From: Candidatus Equadaptatus faecalis
GTDB lineage: Bacteria > Synergistota > Synergistia > Synergistales > Synergistaceae
NCBI GenBank assembly: GCA_018065065.1
Contig: JAGHTZ010000087.1
Location: 1-36,809, forward strand
Reading direction: 5' to 3'
Length of the DNA: 36,809 nucleotides
Below the pieces are notes generated by a model. It was not told the DNA's origin, ran no database searches, and worked only from the letters and a program-made list of their open reading frames with translations. Made by a program: the position numbers and the translations under genes. Below are positions 2,822 through 34,529 of this stretch, piece by piece. Every line of letters begins with the position of its first letter. Positions within the stretch are counted from its first letter, which is position 1.

Positions 2822-4129
2822 TTACAGAAATGCCGCTGCATAGAGCGGCATTGTTGTTATTTTGCCGCTGCTTCCAATATTGTAGTCGCCAAGCTTGAGA
2901 GCCTGCGAAACGTGGTATTTTTCTTCATGCGCAGCAACTGTTTTCAGGCTTTTCGCATTGCCGGTCGCGGCTTTTACTTCTACGGGAACGCACTTATTGT
3001 TTCTGCGTATTGCAAAATCAATTTCCAGTCCGCTGTCTTTTTTATAGTAGTAAAGTCTGCGTCCTGCTTTTACAAAGCAGTCAGCGGCAAGCGCTTCATA
3101 CAGCGCCCCTTTGTATATGTTCAGATTTCCTGTCAGAATGTCGCTTTGTGTCCCGTCTTCAAGCATACTCACAAAAAGCCCGGTATCGTTCATATAAACC
3201 TTGAAACAGCTTTTGTCCGCATTGCCTTCCAGCGGAAGCTCAAGGGCATTGAGATTATAGCAGCGGGATATTATTCCGGCGTCTTCTATCCACTGCAGGC
3301 TGCCTTCAAATTTTGAGGCGCTGCCTTTTTTCCGCACCGCTGAATACATAAATTTCTTGTTTTCCTTTGCAAGCTGCGCAGGGATTGAGTCAAAGCATTC
3401 GACTATTTTGCTTTTGTCGCTGTCAGGCGCATATTTAAGCATATCGTCCCTGTAATCCCTTATTATACCTCTCTGTATTTCCAGTACTTCGTTCAACCGC
3501 TTTGTATCTGCGAAAAGCTGTACTGCGCGGGGCATTCCCCCGACAATGGCATACTGCAGAAAAAGCTCGCGAAAGCGCAGATGCAGTGCAGTTTCAACAG
3601 GGGTCGCCGTTTCAATGCAGCCGCGCAGATACGCAATCGTTTCTTCCGCAATGCCGTTTGCCCACAGGAATTCCTCGAAGTCCATGGGGCGCATGTCAAT
3701 TATTGTTTCATAGCCTACAGGCACGGATTTAGGCTGCCCGTATCCGCTTATTCCAAGCAGCGAACCTGTACATATAACGTCAAATCGTCCGTCAAGCTGA
3801 AAAAATTTTAATGCCGTTCTTGCTTCCGGACATTCCTGTATTTCATCAAGAACTATAACTGTATTCCCTGCTTCAAAGGCAGCTGCACTGCCAAGAAAGG
3901 CTGTCATTTTCATAATTATGTCGTCAACGGAAAGAGAACCCTCGAAAATTGAGCGGTAGGCAGGATTTTGATAAAAATCAATCCTGATAACGTGCTTATA
4001 ATTTCTTTCCGCAAACGCAAGCACTGAAGACGTTTTTCCGCATTGTCTGCAGCCTTTTACAACAAGTGGATTCCGCACCGATCGGTTTTTCCACTGCGAA
4101 AACGCTGCCTCAATTTTTCGTTTAAGCAT
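2822..4129 (-). CDS. AAA_14 / DUF4143 family ATPase
   Basis: A 435-residue P-loop ATPase. The Walker A is VKGCRQCGKTS (residues about 24-34), a form usual in AAA_14 proteins, and the Walker B is TVIVLDEIQE (about 89-98). The sensor-like stretch CTGSLLGI follows. The C-terminal third is DUF4143 (KVYMNDTGLFVSML, then a nuclease-like segment GLEIDFAIRR...CVPVEVKA). That last part, a D-x-E-x-K-like arrangement, resembles the PD-(D/E)XK fold, but catalysis is unproven. These ATPases are common in anaerobes, often near toxin-antitoxin genes, and their function is unknown. The start is supported by AGGAG 9 bases upstream and a good promoter. It is bordered by the direct repeats at 2695-2747 and the 32-bp tandem repeat at 4178-4271. 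Confidence 0.85.
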   Translation of the reverse strand: MLKRKIEAAFSQWKNRSVRNPLVVKGCRQCGKTSSVLAFAERNYKHVIRIDFYQNPAYRSIFEGSLSVDDIIMKMTAFLGSAAAFEAGNTVIVLDEIQECPEARTALKFFQLDGRFDVICTGSLLGISGYGQPKSVPVGYETIIDMRPMDFEEFLWANGIAEETIAYLRGCIETATPVETALHLRFRELFLQYAIVGGMPRAVQLFADTKRLNEVLEIQRGIIRDYRDDMLKYAPDSDKSKIVECFDSIPAQLAKENKKFMYSAVRKKGSASKFEGSLQWIEDAGIISRCYNLNALELPLEGNADKSCFKVYMNDTGLFVSMLEDGTQSDILTGNLNIYKGALYEALAADCFVKAGRRLYYYKKDSGLEIDFAIRRNNKCVPVEVKAATGNAKSLKTVAAHEEKYHVSQALKLGDYNIGSSGKITTMPLYAAAFL

Positions 4130-5485: not shown

Positions 5486-5689
5486 GTGAATAAGGTCGCT
5501 GCTTTTATCAAGCAAAGCAGAAAAACTGCAGGACTTACCCAAAAGGAATTTGCTCTTCGTTCGGGATTAGGGCTGCGCTTCGTCCGTGATTTGGAACAGG
5601 GCAAGCCGTCTGTCCGCATGGATAAGGTTAACCAGGCGCTCGCAATGTTTGGCGCAGAGATTGTGCCGTGCAGGGTTGACAAGCAATAA
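5486..5689 (+). CDS. hipB: HipB-like XRE-family antitoxin / repressor
   Basis: A 67-residue helix-turn-helix protein spanning one XRE/HTH_3 domain: IKQSRKTAGLTQKEFALRSG, then GLRFVRDLEQGKPSVRMDKVNQALAMFG. This is the size and pattern of HipB (y4mF group) proteins, which bind operator DNA as dimers and hold the cognate kinase. The GTG at 5486 has GGAGG 8 bases upstream; the ATG at 5482 would stop after three codons. The stop TAA overlaps the next ATG by one base, so translation is probably coupled. Two palindromes at its promoter are the likely binding sites. Confidence 0.87.
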   Translation: MNKVAAFIKQSRKTAGLTQKEFALRSGLGLRFVRDLEQGKPSVRMDKVNQALAMFGAEIVPCRVDKQ

Positions 5690-6018
5690 TGGCGGCTTAC
5701 CGGGCAGCAGAAATTTACGTACACGACATTTTTGCCGGTATTCTGCGTGAAACCGACGAAGGTTATTCTTTTGTGTATGATACAGCATATTTAAAAAAGG
5801 ACAACGCTGTACCGGTCAGTTTAACCCTGCCTCTTAATAAAGAGCCATATTTTTCAAAAACTCTGTTCGCTTTTTTTGACGGGCTTATTCCTGAGGGCTG
5901 GCTGTTGGACGTTGTCGTTCGCAACTGGAAGCTGAGAGCAGACGACAGGTTTGGTATTTTGCTCGCCGCGTGCAGGGATTGTATCGGCTGCGTATCTGTC
6001 AGGGAGATTGTACAATGA
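5689..6018 (+). CDS. hipS: HipS-like small protein (HipA N-terminal subdomain)
   Basis: A 109-residue protein corresponding to the N-terminal subdomain of HipA (Couple_hipA) on its own. It shows the family pattern: FAGILRE near the start, PVSLTLPL at about 42-49, LFAFFDGLIPEGWLL at about 59-73, and CRDCIGCVSV near the end. In three-gene HipBST systems described from enteropathogenic E. coli this small protein, rather than HipB, neutralises the HipT kinase. Its ATG overlaps the hipB stop by one base and its TGA overlaps the hipT ATG (ATGA). An AGGG lies 13 bases upstream, a poor distance, so coupled translation is likely. The antitoxin role here is inferred from gene order and size. Confidence 0.83.
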   Translation: MAAYRAAEIYVHDIFAGILRETDEGYSFVYDTAYLKKDNAVPVSLTLPLNKEPYFSKTLFAFFDGLIPEGWLLDVVVRNWKLRADDRFGILLAACRDCIGCVSVREIVQ

Positions 6019-7001
6019 TAAATTGTCTTTGCTGCGGAAAACCTTTAGGCAAAAATCTTTCTCCCGATGAACTGCAAACCGGCTGGCATAATAAATGTGT
6101 CCGTAACTTTTTCGGAACAAGGTTTCTTCCTGACATCAGCATAACGAATAATGTTATAGAAGAGCTTGCAGAGAAAAGTACGCAGCGCGGTTATACAGTA
6201 CCGGGCGTACAGAAGAAGCTTTCACTGCATCTCTCAGCCGGCAGTGCTTCAGAAAAACCCCGTCTGACTCTTGTCGATTTTCCGTCAGGCTATATCCTTA
6301 AACCTCAAACAGTGGAATATCCTGCACTTCCCGAGGCGGAATACCTTGTTATGAGTATGGCACGGCTTTCAGGAATAAAAACTGTGCCATTTGCGCTGCT
6401 GAATGACGGCGGAAATAACGAGCCTGCCTACATAACAAAACGCATTGACAGAAAACTTGGTTTAAAAGACAATGCAGTGCAAATGTTTGCAATGGAAGAT
6501 TTTTGCCAACTGGCCGGGCGTATGACCCCTGATAAATATAAAGGTTCGTATGAGAGCTGCGCAAAGATAGTCTCGGAATATTCTTCACGTGCAGGTCTTG
6601 ATATGACCGAGTTGTATCTGCGTGTTGTCTTTTCGTTTGCAGTCGGCAATTCCGATATGCACCTGAAAAATTTCTCTCTTATCGAAACATCGCCCAAAAG
6701 CCGTGTATATGTGTTGTCGGAAGCCTACGACATGCTTCCCGTTAATCTTGTCATCCCTGCCGATACAGAGCAGCTCGCGCTTACGCTGAATGGCAAAAAA
6801 AATAACATACACAGAAAAGATTTCACCGAATTTGCAAGGGTGTGCGGTATTCCACCGCATGCAGCCGACAATCTGGTTGCAAGTATTGTGAACAGATATT
6901 CCCAATATACTGCTCTGTGCCGCAATTCGCTTCTGCCTGAACAGATGAAGATTGATTTTGAAAAACTGATATCGGAAAGGATAAAGATACTGGCAGAATA
7001 G
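6015..7001 (+). CDS. hipT: HipT-like serine/threonine kinase toxin (HipA C-terminal type)
   Basis: A 328-residue HipA-family kinase lacking the N-terminal subdomain, which is encoded separately by the gene before it. The ATG at 6015 has AGGGAG 8 bases upstream and overlaps hipS by ATGA. Residues 4-28 contain C-x2-C and H-x2-C, a possible metal site. The glycine-rich loop is YTVPGVQKKLSL (60-71), the catalytic loop GNSDMHLKNF (211-220, Asp214) and the metal-binding Asp is in EAYDM (Asp239). Characterised HipA-type toxins phosphorylate aminoacyl-tRNA synthetases (GltX for HipA, TrpS for E. coli HipT); the target here is unknown. E. coli HipT has an autophosphorylated S-x-S just before GVQ; here the place is Thr61-Val-Pro63, so the second Ser is missing. 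Confidence 0.87.
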   Translation: MINCLCCGKPLGKNLSPDELQTGWHNKCVRNFFGTRFLPDISITNNVIEELAEKSTQRGYTVPGVQKKLSLHLSAGSASEKPRLTLVDFPSGYILKPQTVEYPALPEAEYLVMSMARLSGIKTVPFALLNDGGNNEPAYITKRIDRKLGLKDNAVQMFAMEDFCQLAGRMTPDKYKGSYESCAKIVSEYSSRAGLDMTELYLRVVFSFAVGNSDMHLKNFSLIETSPKSRVYVLSEAYDMLPVNLVIPADTEQLALTLNGKKNNIHRKDFTEFARVCGIPPHAADNLVASIVNRYSQYTALCRNSLLPEQMKIDFEKLISERIKILAE

Positions 7002-11445: not shown

Positions 11446-12684
11446 TTAATCTCTTCTGAACAAATCTCTTGAATACAGTTTTTCTTTTACGTCGTCAAGA
11501 CAGGCGTCCGAACGGTTGGCGATTATTACATCCGCCGTGCGTTTGAATTCGTCAAGGTCGTTGACGATTTTGCTGCCGAAGAATTCGCTGCCGTTTTCGA
11601 GCGTGGGTTCGTAGATTATTACCTGAGCCCCTTTTTGTTTTACTCTTTTCATTACTCCCTGTATGGCACTCTGCCGGAAGTTGTCGGAGTTGGATTTCAT
11701 GGTTAGGCGGTAGATGCCTATTGTCGCCGCTTTTTTGTTTATTATGTCTTCGTCTATGTCTTCGTAGTATTCTTTCCAGCCTGTTTTTTTGAGTACTCTG
11801 TCGGCTATGAAGGTTTTTCTTGTTCTGTTGCTTTCTACTATTGCTTTTATCAGGTTTTGCGGTACTCCTTCGTAGTTGGCAAGGAGCTGTTTGGTGTCTT
11901 TGGGGAGGCAGTAGCCTCCGTAGCCGAAGCTCGGGTTGTTGTAGTGTGTGCCTATTCTGGGATCTAAGCTTACTCCGTCTATTATTTGTTTTGTGTCGAG
12001 TCCTTTGAGTTCAGCGTAGGTGTCAAGTTCGTTGAAGTATGCTACTCTGAGCGCAAGGTAGCAGTTGGAGAACAGTTTTATTGCTTCTGCTTCCGTGAGT
12101 CCGACTATTTTTACGTCTATGTTTTCTTTTTTTGCTCCTTCAACGAGTAATTTTGCAAAGGTTTCGGCTTTTGCGTACATTTCTTTGTCGTCTTTGGGGC
12201 AGCCTACTATTATTCTGCTGGGGTAGAGGTTGTCGTAGAGCGCTTTTGATTCACGGAGGAATTCGGGGCTGAATATTATTTTGCCGCAGTTGTATTTTGC
12301 CCGTACGCTTTCTGTGTAGCCTACGGGTATTGTTGATTTGATTATCATTGTTGCTTTCGGGTTGAGTTTTATTACTTGTTCTATTACGTTTTCGACTGCC
12401 GAGGTGTCAAAGTACTGTTTGTCGGGGTCGTAGTTTGTGGGTGTGGCTATGATTACGTAGTCGGCTTCCGAGTACGCTTTTGTTCCGTCAAGGGTTGCGG
12501 TGAGGTTAAGTTCTTTTTCCGCAAGGTATTTTTCTATGCAGTCGTCCTGTATGGGCGATTTTTTGCTGTTTATGAGTTTTACTTTTTCCGGTATAACGTC
12601 AACCGCGGTTACTTCGTTGTGCTGTGCAAGGAGCACTGCAAGTGAGAGTCCTACGTATCCGGTGCCGGCTACTGCTATACGCAT
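11446..12684 (-). CDS. ugd: UDP-glucose / UDP-N-acetylmannosamine 6-dehydrogenase family, Ugd-like
   Basis: 412 residues. The N-terminal NAD fold has [19 protein letters not shown], followed by [13 protein letters not shown]. The catalytic Cys is in [15 protein letters not shown] (about 255-269), the UDP-binding domain follows, and the protein ends RDLFRRD. It oxidises a UDP-sugar to its uronate, supplying UDP-glucuronate-type precursors for envelope polysaccharide. GGAGG precedes the ATG by 8 bases. Codon use differs from neighbours over most of the gene: Ile is nearly always ATA, Arg AGA, Val GTA, with C-ending codons for Asn, Asp and Tyr. The last 250 bases look more ordinary. This could mean transfer or selection for expression. 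It is the first gene of the LPS operon. Confidence 0.9.
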
Positions 12685-12722
12685 TTCAATTACCTCCGTA
12701 AAATGCTGAATGAAGAATGAAT

Positions 12723-12739
12723 AATGAAGAATTAAGAAT
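12723..12739. repeat. Inverted-repeat arm, left, of the four-helix cassette
   Basis: AATGAAGAATTAAGAAT here is the exact reverse complement of 13203-13219 on the other side of the four-helix gene. Both arms lie in longer stretches of GAATGAAGAA-type sequence (12708-12740 and 13181-13226). Between them lies a single small gene and nothing else. Confidence 0.85.
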
Positions 12740-12773
12740 TAAAAACTTCTTTATCGTACTTCAAACAGAAGAT

Positions 12774-13151
12774 TTAGTTTTTCTTTGCTTTTTCTGCTTT
12801 AAGATTTTGTTCTGTTGTTCTGCATATTGAGGTCAGCATTCTGCAAATCTCATCAATATTGTTTTCAAAACCCGTAAAATCGTTCTCTGAAAGCTGTTTT
12901 GTGTTATAAAGCAACCTAAGCCAATAAGCAGTTTCTTTGGCTTCCTTATCCGCAATTTTCATCTTTGCAAAAAAGTCAGCCTTTGACAGCGCTCCCTGAG
13001 CTTCCACGACATTGGCGCCTATGCTTGTTGCACTCCTGTACAGTTGATTGGAAACAACAAATTCTTTGTGTTGCTGAAGCTGTTTGCACAATCCGGCGAC
13101 TTTAACGGCAAATTTTTCGCTTTTATCAAGAATAGGATTATCTTTTTTCAT
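12774..13151 (-). CDS. Four-helix-bundle protein (23S rRNA intervening-sequence family)
   Basis: 125 residues, all-helical. It matches the four helix bundle family known from intervening sequences in 23S rRNA: KSEKFAVKVAGLCKQLQQHKEF, then SNQLYRSATSIGANVVEAQGALSKADFFAKMKIADKEAKETAYWL. The SIGANVVEA motif and the ETAYWLRLL stretch are typical. The biological role is unknown, although a related fold serves as the accessory (Avd) protein of diversity-generating retroelements. No reverse transcriptase is present here. The gene stands between ugd and dnaB and is bracketed by a perfect 17-bp inverted repeat, which suggests a small mobile cassette. The start is ATG with AAGGCGG upstream. Confidence 0.9.
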   Translation of the reverse strand: MKKDNPILDKSEKFAVKVAGLCKQLQQHKEFVVSNQLYRSATSIGANVVEAQGALSKADFFAKMKIADKEAKETAYWLRLLYNTKQLSENDFTGFENNIDEICRMLTSICRTTEQNLKAEKAKKN

Positions 13152-13202
13152 CTAAACCGCCTTTAAACCACCTTGCCCTCATTCGTTCTTCATTCATTCT
13201 TC

Positions 13203-13219
13203 ATTCTTAATTCTTCATT
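13203..13219. repeat. Inverted-repeat arm, right, of the four-helix cassette
   Basis: ATTCTTAATTCTTCATT, exact reverse complement of 12723-12739. It sits in a TTCATTC-rich stretch immediately downstream (minus strand) of dnaB. Confidence 0.85.
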
Positions 13220-13229
13220 CATAATTGCT

Positions 13230-14585
13230 CTAATAGCTCTTTATCATAGGTTCAAAGCGCGTGTATTCGTTGAAGAATACAAAATCGACTTTGCCTGTTG
13301 CTCCGTTTCTGTTTTTTGCCACTATAAGCTCTGCGTTCTGGTCTGCCGCTTCCTGTTTGTAATAGGCTTCGCGGTAGATAAACATAACCATGTCTGCGTC
13401 CTGCTCGATTGCGCCGGATTCGCGCAGGTCTGAAAGCATCGGGCGTTTGTCCTGCCTGCTTTCAACAGCACGCGAAAGCTGTGACAAAGCAAGCACGGGA
13501 ACCTTGAATTCGCGCGCTATCGCCTTTAATGCGCGCGATATTTCGGAAACGTCCTGCTGTCTGTTGTCGGTGCGTCTGGACGCGTCCATAAGCTGCAGAT
13601 AGTCAAGCACTATAAGCCCCTTGTCCGTTTTCTGTTTTGCAAAGAAACGGCGGCATTTCGCGCGCAGTTCTATTGTGGACAGAGCTGCTGTTTCGTCAAT
13701 GTAGAGCGGACATTTTTCAAGCCTTCCTGCTGCGTCTGCCAGCTGCTTCCATTCTGCAGAGTTCATTGAAACGTTGCCCTTCGCTGAGTTAACGTCAAGC
13801 AGCTGGCGCAGGTTAACCCTGGATTCGGCGGCTATCATTCTGTTTGCCACCTGCTCTGCCGACATTTCAAGGCTGAAAATAAGAACCGGTATGTTTTCTT
13901 CAAGCGCTACATGCGCGCCGATGTTCAGCGCAAGCGCTGTTTTTCCCATTGACGGGCGTGCGGCAAGAATGTAGAGCGAGCCGGGCTGAAGCCCTCCGGA
14001 GATTTTGTCAAAATCGCGGAAGCCTGTGCTTATGCCAGTGAACGAGGTACCGTTTGCAAGCCTGCTTTCAATATCCCTGAACGCGTCGGTTACAACGTCT
14101 TTTGCTTCGCGTATCGTAGTCGTTCTGCCTGTACGCGCGAGTTCGTAAATGCTCTGCTCTGCTTTTTCAAGAGCCTCGTCGGAGGCAATGTTTTCAGTGT
14201 AGCCGAGCTTCGTTATGTCGGTGCCGACTGTGATAAGTCCCCGCAGAACAGCTTTTTCAAGCACTATGTCCGCATAATATTCGGTATTTGCGGAGGTGGA
14301 AACGCTGTCCATAATTGCGGCGATAAACGGCTGTCCGCCTACGTTCTGTTCAACACCCCTGCTTTGGATTTCGTTCAAAAAAGTTACGGCGTCAACCGCG
14401 GTTCCCTTTTCAAAAAGGGAAAGCAGCAGTTCAAACGCCTGTGCATGACGCGGGTCATAGAAATCCTCCGTGTGCAGCTTTTCAACCGCAAGCGCAAGAG
14501 CATCCTTGTCAAGCAGACATGCGCCGAGCACTGCACGCTCAGCTTCGAGATTAAACGGGGGCTGCCTGTCTATGACCTGTGCCAA
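13230..14585 (-). CDS. dnaB: Replicative DNA helicase DnaB
   Basis: 451 residues, hexameric helicase that unwinds DNA at the fork. The N-terminal domain begins with QPPFNLEAERAVLGACLLD. The RecA-like domain has Walker A AARPSMGKTALALN, Walker B LIVLDYLQLMD, and LSQLSRAVESRQDKRPMLSDLRESGAIEQDADMV. The start is TTG at 14585, two bases after the rplI stop, with GGAGG within the end of rplI. No intein was seen. It is the last gene of the DUF2232-rplI-dnaB unit; no good terminator was found after it, only the repeat-rich cassette edge. Confidence 0.96.
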   Translation of the reverse strand: MAQVIDRQPPFNLEAERAVLGACLLDKDALALAVEKLHTEDFYDPRHAQAFELLLSLFEKGTAVDAVTFLNEIQSRGVEQNVGGQPFIAAIMDSVSTSANTEYYADIVLEKAVLRGLITVGTDITKLGYTENIASDEALEKAEQSIYELARTGRTTTIREAKDVVTDAFRDIESRLANGTSFTGISTGFRDFDKISGGLQPGSLYILAARPSMGKTALALNIGAHVALEENIPVLIFSLEMSAEQVANRMIAAESRVNLRQLLDVNSAKGNVSMNSAEWKQLADAAGRLEKCPLYIDETAALSTIELRAKCRRFFAKQKTDKGLIVLDYLQLMDASRRTDNRQQDVSEISRALKAIAREFKVPVLALSQLSRAVESRQDKRPMLSDLRESGAIEQDADMVMFIYREAYYKQEAADQNAELIVAKNRNGATGKVDFVFFNEYTRFEPMIKSY

Positions 14586-33434: not shown

Positions 33435-34499
33435 TCAGACAATTTCCCACCTGCCGTTGCGTTTGCCGTTAATTCTTTTGATTAACCTCTTTTCCTGCAG
33501 CACAACCGTAATGCGTTTTACTGTAATTAATGATACTTTGGTGAGTTCCGCTATTTCTTTCTGCGTCGCCTCAGGATTGGCTGTTACCGCATTATATACA
33601 GCAAGTTCTTTTGGTGTCAATTTCAAAGTACCATTTTTCAAAGTATCATTTTGGACATTTTGAACTTTTGGGACATCTATATGCAGATTTCTGTTTCTAA
33701 GCTGGTGTTGTGTACCGATAAGCAGATTTTCAAAAAATCTCTCGAGGTAATCAGTCTTTGCGTATATTCCTTTACTGAAGTTGTTATAGTTTGCCCGTAC
33801 AAGCGCATTCCTAAAGTACAATGAATTTTTTTCAAAAGCATCGTTGCTGATGGCAAAACCAAATGTATTGAGATATTTGATAATAAACACTGCCGTCGCT
33901 CTTGTATTGCCTTCAATGAATGGGTGTATCTGCCAAATGTCCGCCGTAAATTTTGCTATATGTTTAATCATATCTTGAACTGTCAAATTTTCGTACGAAT
34001 ATTTTTTTTCCTGTTCAAAATCGTACTCGACCGTGTTTTTTATACTTTCAAACGAGGCATACAGTACAGTGTCTCCGTTGAGAATCCATTCTTTTTTCGT
34101 AATGTTGCAGTCTCTGTATTTCCCTGCATTACCAAGTATGCCGTCAAAAAGACGGTTGTGTATTATTTTCCACTCTACAGGTGAAAATTGGAATGTTTTC
34201 TCGCTAAGCAGTTCGGTTATTCTTGTCGATACAACATCTGCTTCCCTGTTGTCTGATTCGAAAACTCTGTGTTTTGAGATTTCTTCATAGTAACTTTTGA
34301 TGCGCTGCTTTACCGCCGCCATATCTATTTTTCCCTCAATATGCTCTTTGGCTGTTCTGATGAGGTATTCTGACGGCTCAAGTCCGTCTACAGCCTGAAG
34401 CCCTATTGCGGTTTGCCATGCTGCGCATTTTTCTGTTTTTTCCGGTTCGCCTTGTTTAATGTAGCCTTCAAGTTCGACCTGCCAGTTTTTGTTTGCCAT
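33435..34499 (-). CDS. Fic-domain protein with VbhA-like N-terminus and winged-helix tail
   Basis: 354 residues in three parts. The first (about 1-75) resembles VbhA-type antitoxin domains (AVDGLEPSEYLI...IEGKIDMAAVKQRI). The Fic core (about 100-260) has HPFIEGNTR at 192-200, the AMP-transfer motif with Thr where Gly or Lys is common. The last 60 residues are a winged helix, TPKELAVYNAV...VSLITVKRITVVL, ending RWEIV. The inhibitory motif of Fic antitoxins is (S/T)-x3-E-(G/N); here the aligned position reads KEHIEG (51-56), with Lys in the S/T place. Relatives AMPylate proteins or are self-regulated DNA-binding proteins; the target is unknown. ATG at 34499 has AGAGG 9 bases upstream; the ORF start at 34523 does not. 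Confidence 0.85.
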   Translation of the reverse strand: MANKNWQVELEGYIKQGEPEKTEKCAAWQTAIGLQAVDGLEPSEYLIRTAKEHIEGKIDMAAVKQRIKSYYEEISKHRVFESDNREADVVSTRITELLSEKTFQFSPVEWKIIHNRLFDGILGNAGKYRDCNITKKEWILNGDTVLYASFESIKNTVEYDFEQEKKYSYENLTVQDMIKHIAKFTADIWQIHPFIEGNTRATAVFIIKYLNTFGFAISNDAFEKNSLYFRNALVRANYNNFSKGIYAKTDYLERFFENLLIGTQHQLRNRNLHIDVPKVQNVQNDTLKNGTLKLTPKELAVYNAVTANPEATQKEIAELTKVSLITVKRITVVLQEKRLIKRINGKRNGRWEIV

Positions 34500-34529
34500 A
34501 GCTAATGTCCTCTGATTTTTCATGTCTGT

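Follow-up and report, generated by a model that had tools for sequence, protein, structure and literature searches.

Among the closest described counterparts of the element reported here, which was found in a window of 36,809 nucleotides (the whole stretch of DNA that was analysed), are the intervening sequences (IVSs) of 23S rRNA genes with an S23p/IVP open reading frame in Coxiella and Leptospira, with which it shares the protein family, a size of ~0.4-0.5 kb and complementary ends (PMC4990558). Both are also patchily distributed and apparently selfish, and the function of the protein is not established (PMC4990558). In contrast to these IVSs the window element lies outside rRNA. Its own ends are formed by 7-bp tandem arrays with a word that covaries with the protein.

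RAYT proteins are HUH nucleases of the Y1 type. In REP/REPIN-RAYT systems (for REPINs, PMC3116915) short palindromic dispersed repeats are apparently matched to one resident protein gene, as in the present case; unlike RAYT, IVP folds as a four-helix bundle and has no known catalytic motif. Y1 is missing from the host genome. MITEs resemble the IVP element as short units with inverted ends that lack a transposase gene and occur in gene-less copies, but the IVP element has no visible target-site duplication, ends in degenerate tandem arrays and encodes a protein that appears to read its ends. Avd, a protein of diversity-generating retroelements (DGRs), forms a pentamer. It has the same fold as the window IVP (4DWL, 8UB7); however, the window locus is without RT, TR and VR, and the DGR-linked Avd genes near RT (L070 and L089), together with the relative L238, are without arrays. 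A study of TAACTGA and other heptamer repeats reported TAACTGA from Beggiatoaceae, cyanobacteria and Bacteroidetes and saw no evident mechanism (MacGregor 2015, PMC4679880). For these dispersed arrays horizontal spread was suspected and no source gene was reported, and the terms 'four helix', 'IVP' and 'intervening' do not occur in the main text of that paper (PMC4679880).

The window element spans positions 12702-13226, and its IVP gene (12774..13151, minus strand; 125 amino acids, PF05635, four-helix bundle) is the sole gene between two terminal arrays. The left array (12702..12746, plus strand) consists of about six inward-reading 7-bp units (AATGCTG, AATGAAG, AATGAAT, AATGAAG, AATTAAG and AATTAAA), and the right array (13186..13226, minus strand) consists of the same unit in inverted orientation and ends 4 bp from the stop codon of dnaB. 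Outside the element lie a gene for a ugd-like UDP-glucose/GDP-mannose dehydrogenase (11446..12684) and dnaB (13230..14585); dnaB, IVP and ugd are all on the minus strand. Within the arrays, the perfect 17-bp arm AATGAAGAATTAAGAAT (12723..12739, plus strand) recurs as its exact reverse complement at 13203..13219 (minus strand). Allowing up to three mismatches, AATGAAGAATTAAGAAT was matched eight times in the window, always within the two arms, while 100 shuffled windows gave a mean of 0.15 and a maximum of 3 matches, none reaching 8. Because these matches overlap in 7-bp steps, the arms are tandem arrays of a degenerate heptamer of the AATGAAG type, and their reading as a plain 17-bp TIR was rejected. 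The sequence-only reading was right that a perfect inverted 17-bp repeat is present, and that it encloses only a gene of the 23S-IVS four-helix type at a ugd-dnaB site; it missed that the arms are 7-bp arrays and that repeat and protein are linked.

Against the PF05635 profile the window IVP scored 96.4 bits (E-value 1.4e-27), above the curated cut-off of 33.8. The arms pair in the predicted RNA fold, giving complementary ends, and RNA folding of the entire element was unexceptional (z -1.3). The element has terminal inverted repeats without a transposase gene, and its site is not in a 16S or 23S rRNA gene but between ugd and dnaB. This gene order was absent in the relatives examined, and the sole genome of the same genus that was compared yielded no dnaB. 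Accessory-looking genes elsewhere in the window, at 1341-2630, 2822-4129, 5689-7001 and 33435-34523, were assigned to a Schlafen/AlbA_2 protein, an AAA_14/DUF4143 ATPase, a protein read by eye as a HipA-like kinase, and a Fic protein.

In the model of the window IVP (pLDDT 96.7), residues 6-27, 31-52, 57-83 and 89-124 form helices. The fold of this protein matches 2RLD, the closest solved structure, and 2GSC, each of which has five chains, and also Avd; the Xanthomonas IVP homologue is a homopentamer.

The host genome (G000; 1.6 Mb in 100 contigs) holds six PF05635 genes. Further copies of the arms, which the sequence-only reading had proposed to look for, were found: the perfect 17-mer occurs at two more places, and similar heptamer arrays with up to three mismatches gave 86 matches vs 26 for a reversed-pattern control. 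Arrays of the window's heptamer type occur at ~40 places, these genome-wide counts being pattern searches, and many are gene-less pairs of a plus and then a minus array ~40-150 bp apart. Other IVP genes of the host are flanked by inverted arrays of different words, namely AACGAAG (L002), GCTGACA (L065) and a GCTATAT type (L071), and the paralogue L003 (contig C14, 1327-1450 and 1900-2000) by inverted arrays with a 17-bp period around AATGAC. Composites without a gene, where a heptamer array runs into others (ATTCTTC, TGCATTT and AGCTTAT types), were seen at L010, L015, L022, L024, L025, L028 and L031; such composites often lie beside other repeated intergenic sequences.

Within the phylum IVP genes are patchy, with 16 of 167 genomes above the cut-off and most relatives without the gene. 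The loci sampled came from relatives, viral contigs and 80 named genomes (Bacteroidota, Bacillota, Cyanobacteria, Verrucomicrobia, Spirochaetota and others), and the same array-gene-array layout was found in all three sets, across many phyla. No close relatives of the window protein were obtained by a single-protein search of the viral contigs. Flanks of 137 non-redundant IVP loci, plasmid loci among them, were scored for lag-7 segments above the 99.5% shuffle level. Such a segment was present in 72.6% of flanks, and on both sides in 60.6% of loci; the harmonic lag 14 was present in 67.5% of flanks and every other lag from 4 to 15 in at most 6.6%. At least one tandem array (median length 34 nt) was recorded in 82% of the loci. 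Where two arrays were present they were inverted in 79 of 82 loci. An exact inverted repeat of at least 13 bp between the flanks occurred in 52% of loci; the corresponding values were 1.3% for mismatched flank pairs and 6% for 34 control genes. By the lag test ~18% of loci are without a 7-bp array; two of these have 8-bp arrays and a few others inverted or tandem arrays of 11, 15 or 17 bp. The inverted arrays of 8-bp period (L183, L249) form a less common sister type to the 7-bp design. An rRNA location for weak-array loci was rejected, no rRNA having been found around 20 of them. Among additional plasmid and phage loci 13 of 15 have arrays on both sides, and several of these elements lie within operons, such as those between cas2 and cas1 and between hsdS and hsdR. 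The cas2-cas1 cases are on two Nostocales plasmids (L274, L275), and elements between restriction-modification genes were seen at L270, L188 and L189.

Gain and loss could be followed at two junctions. The element of G026, which has a word of the AGGTAGG type, sits between two genes that are adjacent in G172, G090, G111, G082 and G175. G026 and G172 are 93% identical at this junction, and the filled site reads ...TTTGAAAAG|CAGGTAGGAATTAGG...CCTAACTCCTACCTG|ATAAAAAATTATG... vs ...AAAAACTAAAAATTG... for the empty site; the insertion starts and stops with the arrays, and the relatives are without any array here. The upstream gene apparently takes its stop codon from the left array of this element. 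No target-site duplication was evident at the G026/G172 empty site, where ~7% divergence blurs the joint. At the second junction G090 has a full element, G172 and G175 have a gene-less array hairpin, G082 has half, and G092 and G094 have nothing; a PF05635 match was absent in G172, G175 and G082, which are 74-80% complete. In G111, whose genome has many arrays of the type that matches, the PF05635 match is broken by two stop codons (L090, G111:C17). The flanks of a further locus (L066) had no match in two sister genomes of its genus. Duplicate copies in Calothrix belong to a larger plasmid duplication and were left out. Since empty sites and gene-less hairpins are found at the same junctions, arrays and gene behave as a single insertion, and from these genome comparisons we consider it very probable that they form one mobile unit. 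The proposal of the sequence-only reading that this is a minimal mobile unit without a recognisable recombinase gained support from the empty sites of two sister elements, the gene missing in most relatives and the arms recurring in the genome; its further proposal that the unit is moved by a host or rival enzyme did not gain such support, Y1 and RT being missing from several carrier genomes.

A resident enzyme of a different family (a Y1 transposase, a reverse transcriptase or similar) might move the element in trans, IVP being a passenger or chaperone; this was examined for the Y1 and RT families. IVP has no known nuclease signature, its relative Avd has a reverse transcriptase as partner, and Y1 or RT genes are present in some IVP genomes: among 16 genomes of the phylum with a true IVP, Y1 transposase occurs in 6 and RT in 3. 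However, Y1 is about equally frequent in genomes with and without IVP; G003 and G026, both IVP carriers of 100% estimated completeness, have neither a Y1 nor an RT match; and Y1 (PF01797) is absent from G000 with its six IVP genes. No RT lies on the window contig, the two RT matches of G000 being on contigs C34 and C88. Neither Y1 transposase nor RT is therefore supported as an obligatory partner, several IVP genomes having neither, and we regard movement in trans as unlikely. The arrays could instead be operators of an autoregulated, non-mobile host gene, its patchiness reflecting the usual horizontal spread of a gene and its control region together. An operator would be in keeping with specific recognition of both flanks and with the lack of a transposase, but empty sites that are without arrays and gene together while the flanking genes are otherwise adjacent, gene-less hairpins at many places with hundreds of arrays per genome, and the inverted, end-like layout of the arrays make this explanation improbable.

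The array word varies from element to element, with 82 distinct words among 113 elements. Cyclic alignment of 88 words of the window subfamily gave the core N-A(97%)-R(95%)-T(94%)-K(92%)-N-N with 4.14 bits of information vs a maximum of 2.94 in shuffled words; a second subfamily (A3) has no significant common core. The window unit GAATGAA fits the core and places the window element among the proposed IVP-heptamer elements. Word distance tracks protein distance after correction for GC (r = 0.37, p = 0.001) and in pairs from different phyla alone (r = 0.38, p = 0.001); among the latter, words are within one letter of each other in 24% of pairs if the proteins are more than 60% identical and in 0.4% if they are less than 20% identical. 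Stops in all three frames are more frequent in inward than in outward arrays (52% vs 19%). Stop codons as the reason for the word were nevertheless rejected: 72% of words contain a stop vs 67% after letter shuffling, so letter composition accounts for most of the excess. The word TCAGTTA/TAACTGA itself is found in the IVP elements of a Microcystis (L152) and a Nostocales genome (L163). In these genomes the TAACTGA dimer TAACTGATAACTGA has 846 and 755 copies (control 0 and 1); the last of the three genomes compared, from a cyanobacterium with a different IVP word, has none. IVP elements would be a likely source of dispersed heptamer repeats whose origin had lacked an explanation.

The window protein residues tied to the repeat word are N5, G53, D68 and C110. 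Mutual information pointed to residue 53 as the column for letter 6 (z 16 vs a mean of 1.5 over 114 columns), with G going with A in 20/20 cases, A with T in 11/12, Q with G in 7/8, H with G in 4/4 and R with C in 8/12. Residue 68 also goes with letter 6 (Y with A, 19/19; S with T, 11/11), residue 110 with letter 7 (Q with C, 8/9; T with G, 9/13) and residue 5 with letter 3 (N with A, 51/52; S with G, 10/14). In the window, which was a training locus, N5, G53 and C110 go with the letters A, A and A, as in other members. Alignment gives N5, Q53, L68 and I110 for BT_0352 (2RLD) of B. thetaiotaomicron VPI-5482, for which the code predicts flanking words of the form N-A-A-T-(T/G)-G-(A/T). When all proteins at least 50% identical to the target were left out, residues 53 and 68 predicted letter 6 in 15/16 cases (majority guess 5/16), residues 110 and 68 letter 7 in 19/22 (7/22) and residue 5 letter 3 in 61/66 (55/66). 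Letter 7 was predicted wrongly for two hold-outs (L271 and L272), and no prediction was achieved for letter 5. We also used 35 edge-disjoint pairs from a tree built without the columns of these residues; the best residues had been found on largely the same set, and this pair test re-ranks all 114 columns. All 14 pairs with a change of letter 6 also differ at residue 53, as do 4 of the 21 pairs without one (p = 1.3e-6, best of 114 columns). The best columns for letter 3 (residue 5, p = 1e-3) and letter 5 (residue 57, p = 0.012) were not significant after correction for all columns. By helix topology, residues 5, 53 and 57 would lie at one end of the bundle, with 68 and 110 in the adjoining half. 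From the strength of this covariation we infer recognition of the word by IVP, and judge it highly likely that the protein directly reads the word of its own arrays.

The heptamer arrays might also be pre-existing intergenic repeats grown by slippage, where IVP genes land by recombination and whose sequence the protein does not read. Array length does shift in whole 7-bp units between near-identical loci (L100/L101, L188/L189), and relatives have gene-less arrays at the second junction (G172, G175), but relatives have no array whatever at the G026 junction, the words differ between IVP genes of one genome, and the residue-letter code with its phylogeny-independent test speaks against this origin, which we consider very improbable. 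The correlation might also come from nothing more than the shared ancestry of a gene and arrays that are linked, with no recognition involved. Closely related proteins do have words in common, and linkage by itself would make gene and arrays travel together, but linkage would not single out particular residues, whereas residue 53 stands out alone among 114 columns for letter 6, and the predictions also succeed between proteins below 50% identity. This reading too is very improbable.

Based on sequence comparison, the window unit is probably a member of a widespread family of selfish mobile elements, in which an IVP gene lies between inward-facing arrays of an element-specific 7-bp word and IVP reads its own array. 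The four-helix protein would act as a sequence-specific reader, as the covariation suggests, with residue 53 together with 68 setting letter 6, 68 and 110 setting letter 7, and residue 5 setting letter 3. Genome comparison showed arrays and gene to be gained or lost together, between genes, and the gene-less array hairpins may be non-autonomous or decayed copies. Each subunit of the ring may bind one repeat of a single strand, ~5 x 7 = 35 nt, compared with the median array of 34 nt. The bound form could be RNA, or ssDNA at a fork, and the element may be copied by host replication and repair, with IVP possibly participating; no catalytic enzyme was found.

No description of a link between IVP and heptamers was found in open PMC papers, to which the search was confined, so that priority is not certain. 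The reading would offer a possible role for the protein family of 2RLD and 2GSC, two solved structures of 'unknown function', and a testable amino-acid-to-base code. Among mobile elements this would be an additional kind, with tandem 7-mers as ends that match a tiny ring protein, instead of the cut ends of known transposases. Tentatively, and with more doubt than confidence, IVP rings may be repeat readers of a new protein class and serve as mobility factor for an unnamed, very widespread class of mobile elements, in which each subunit would read one 7-nt word by a short residue code and the ring would drive copying by a new mechanism; the classical rRNA IVSs, along with several enigmatic families of heptamer repeats, would then be branches or debris of this class.
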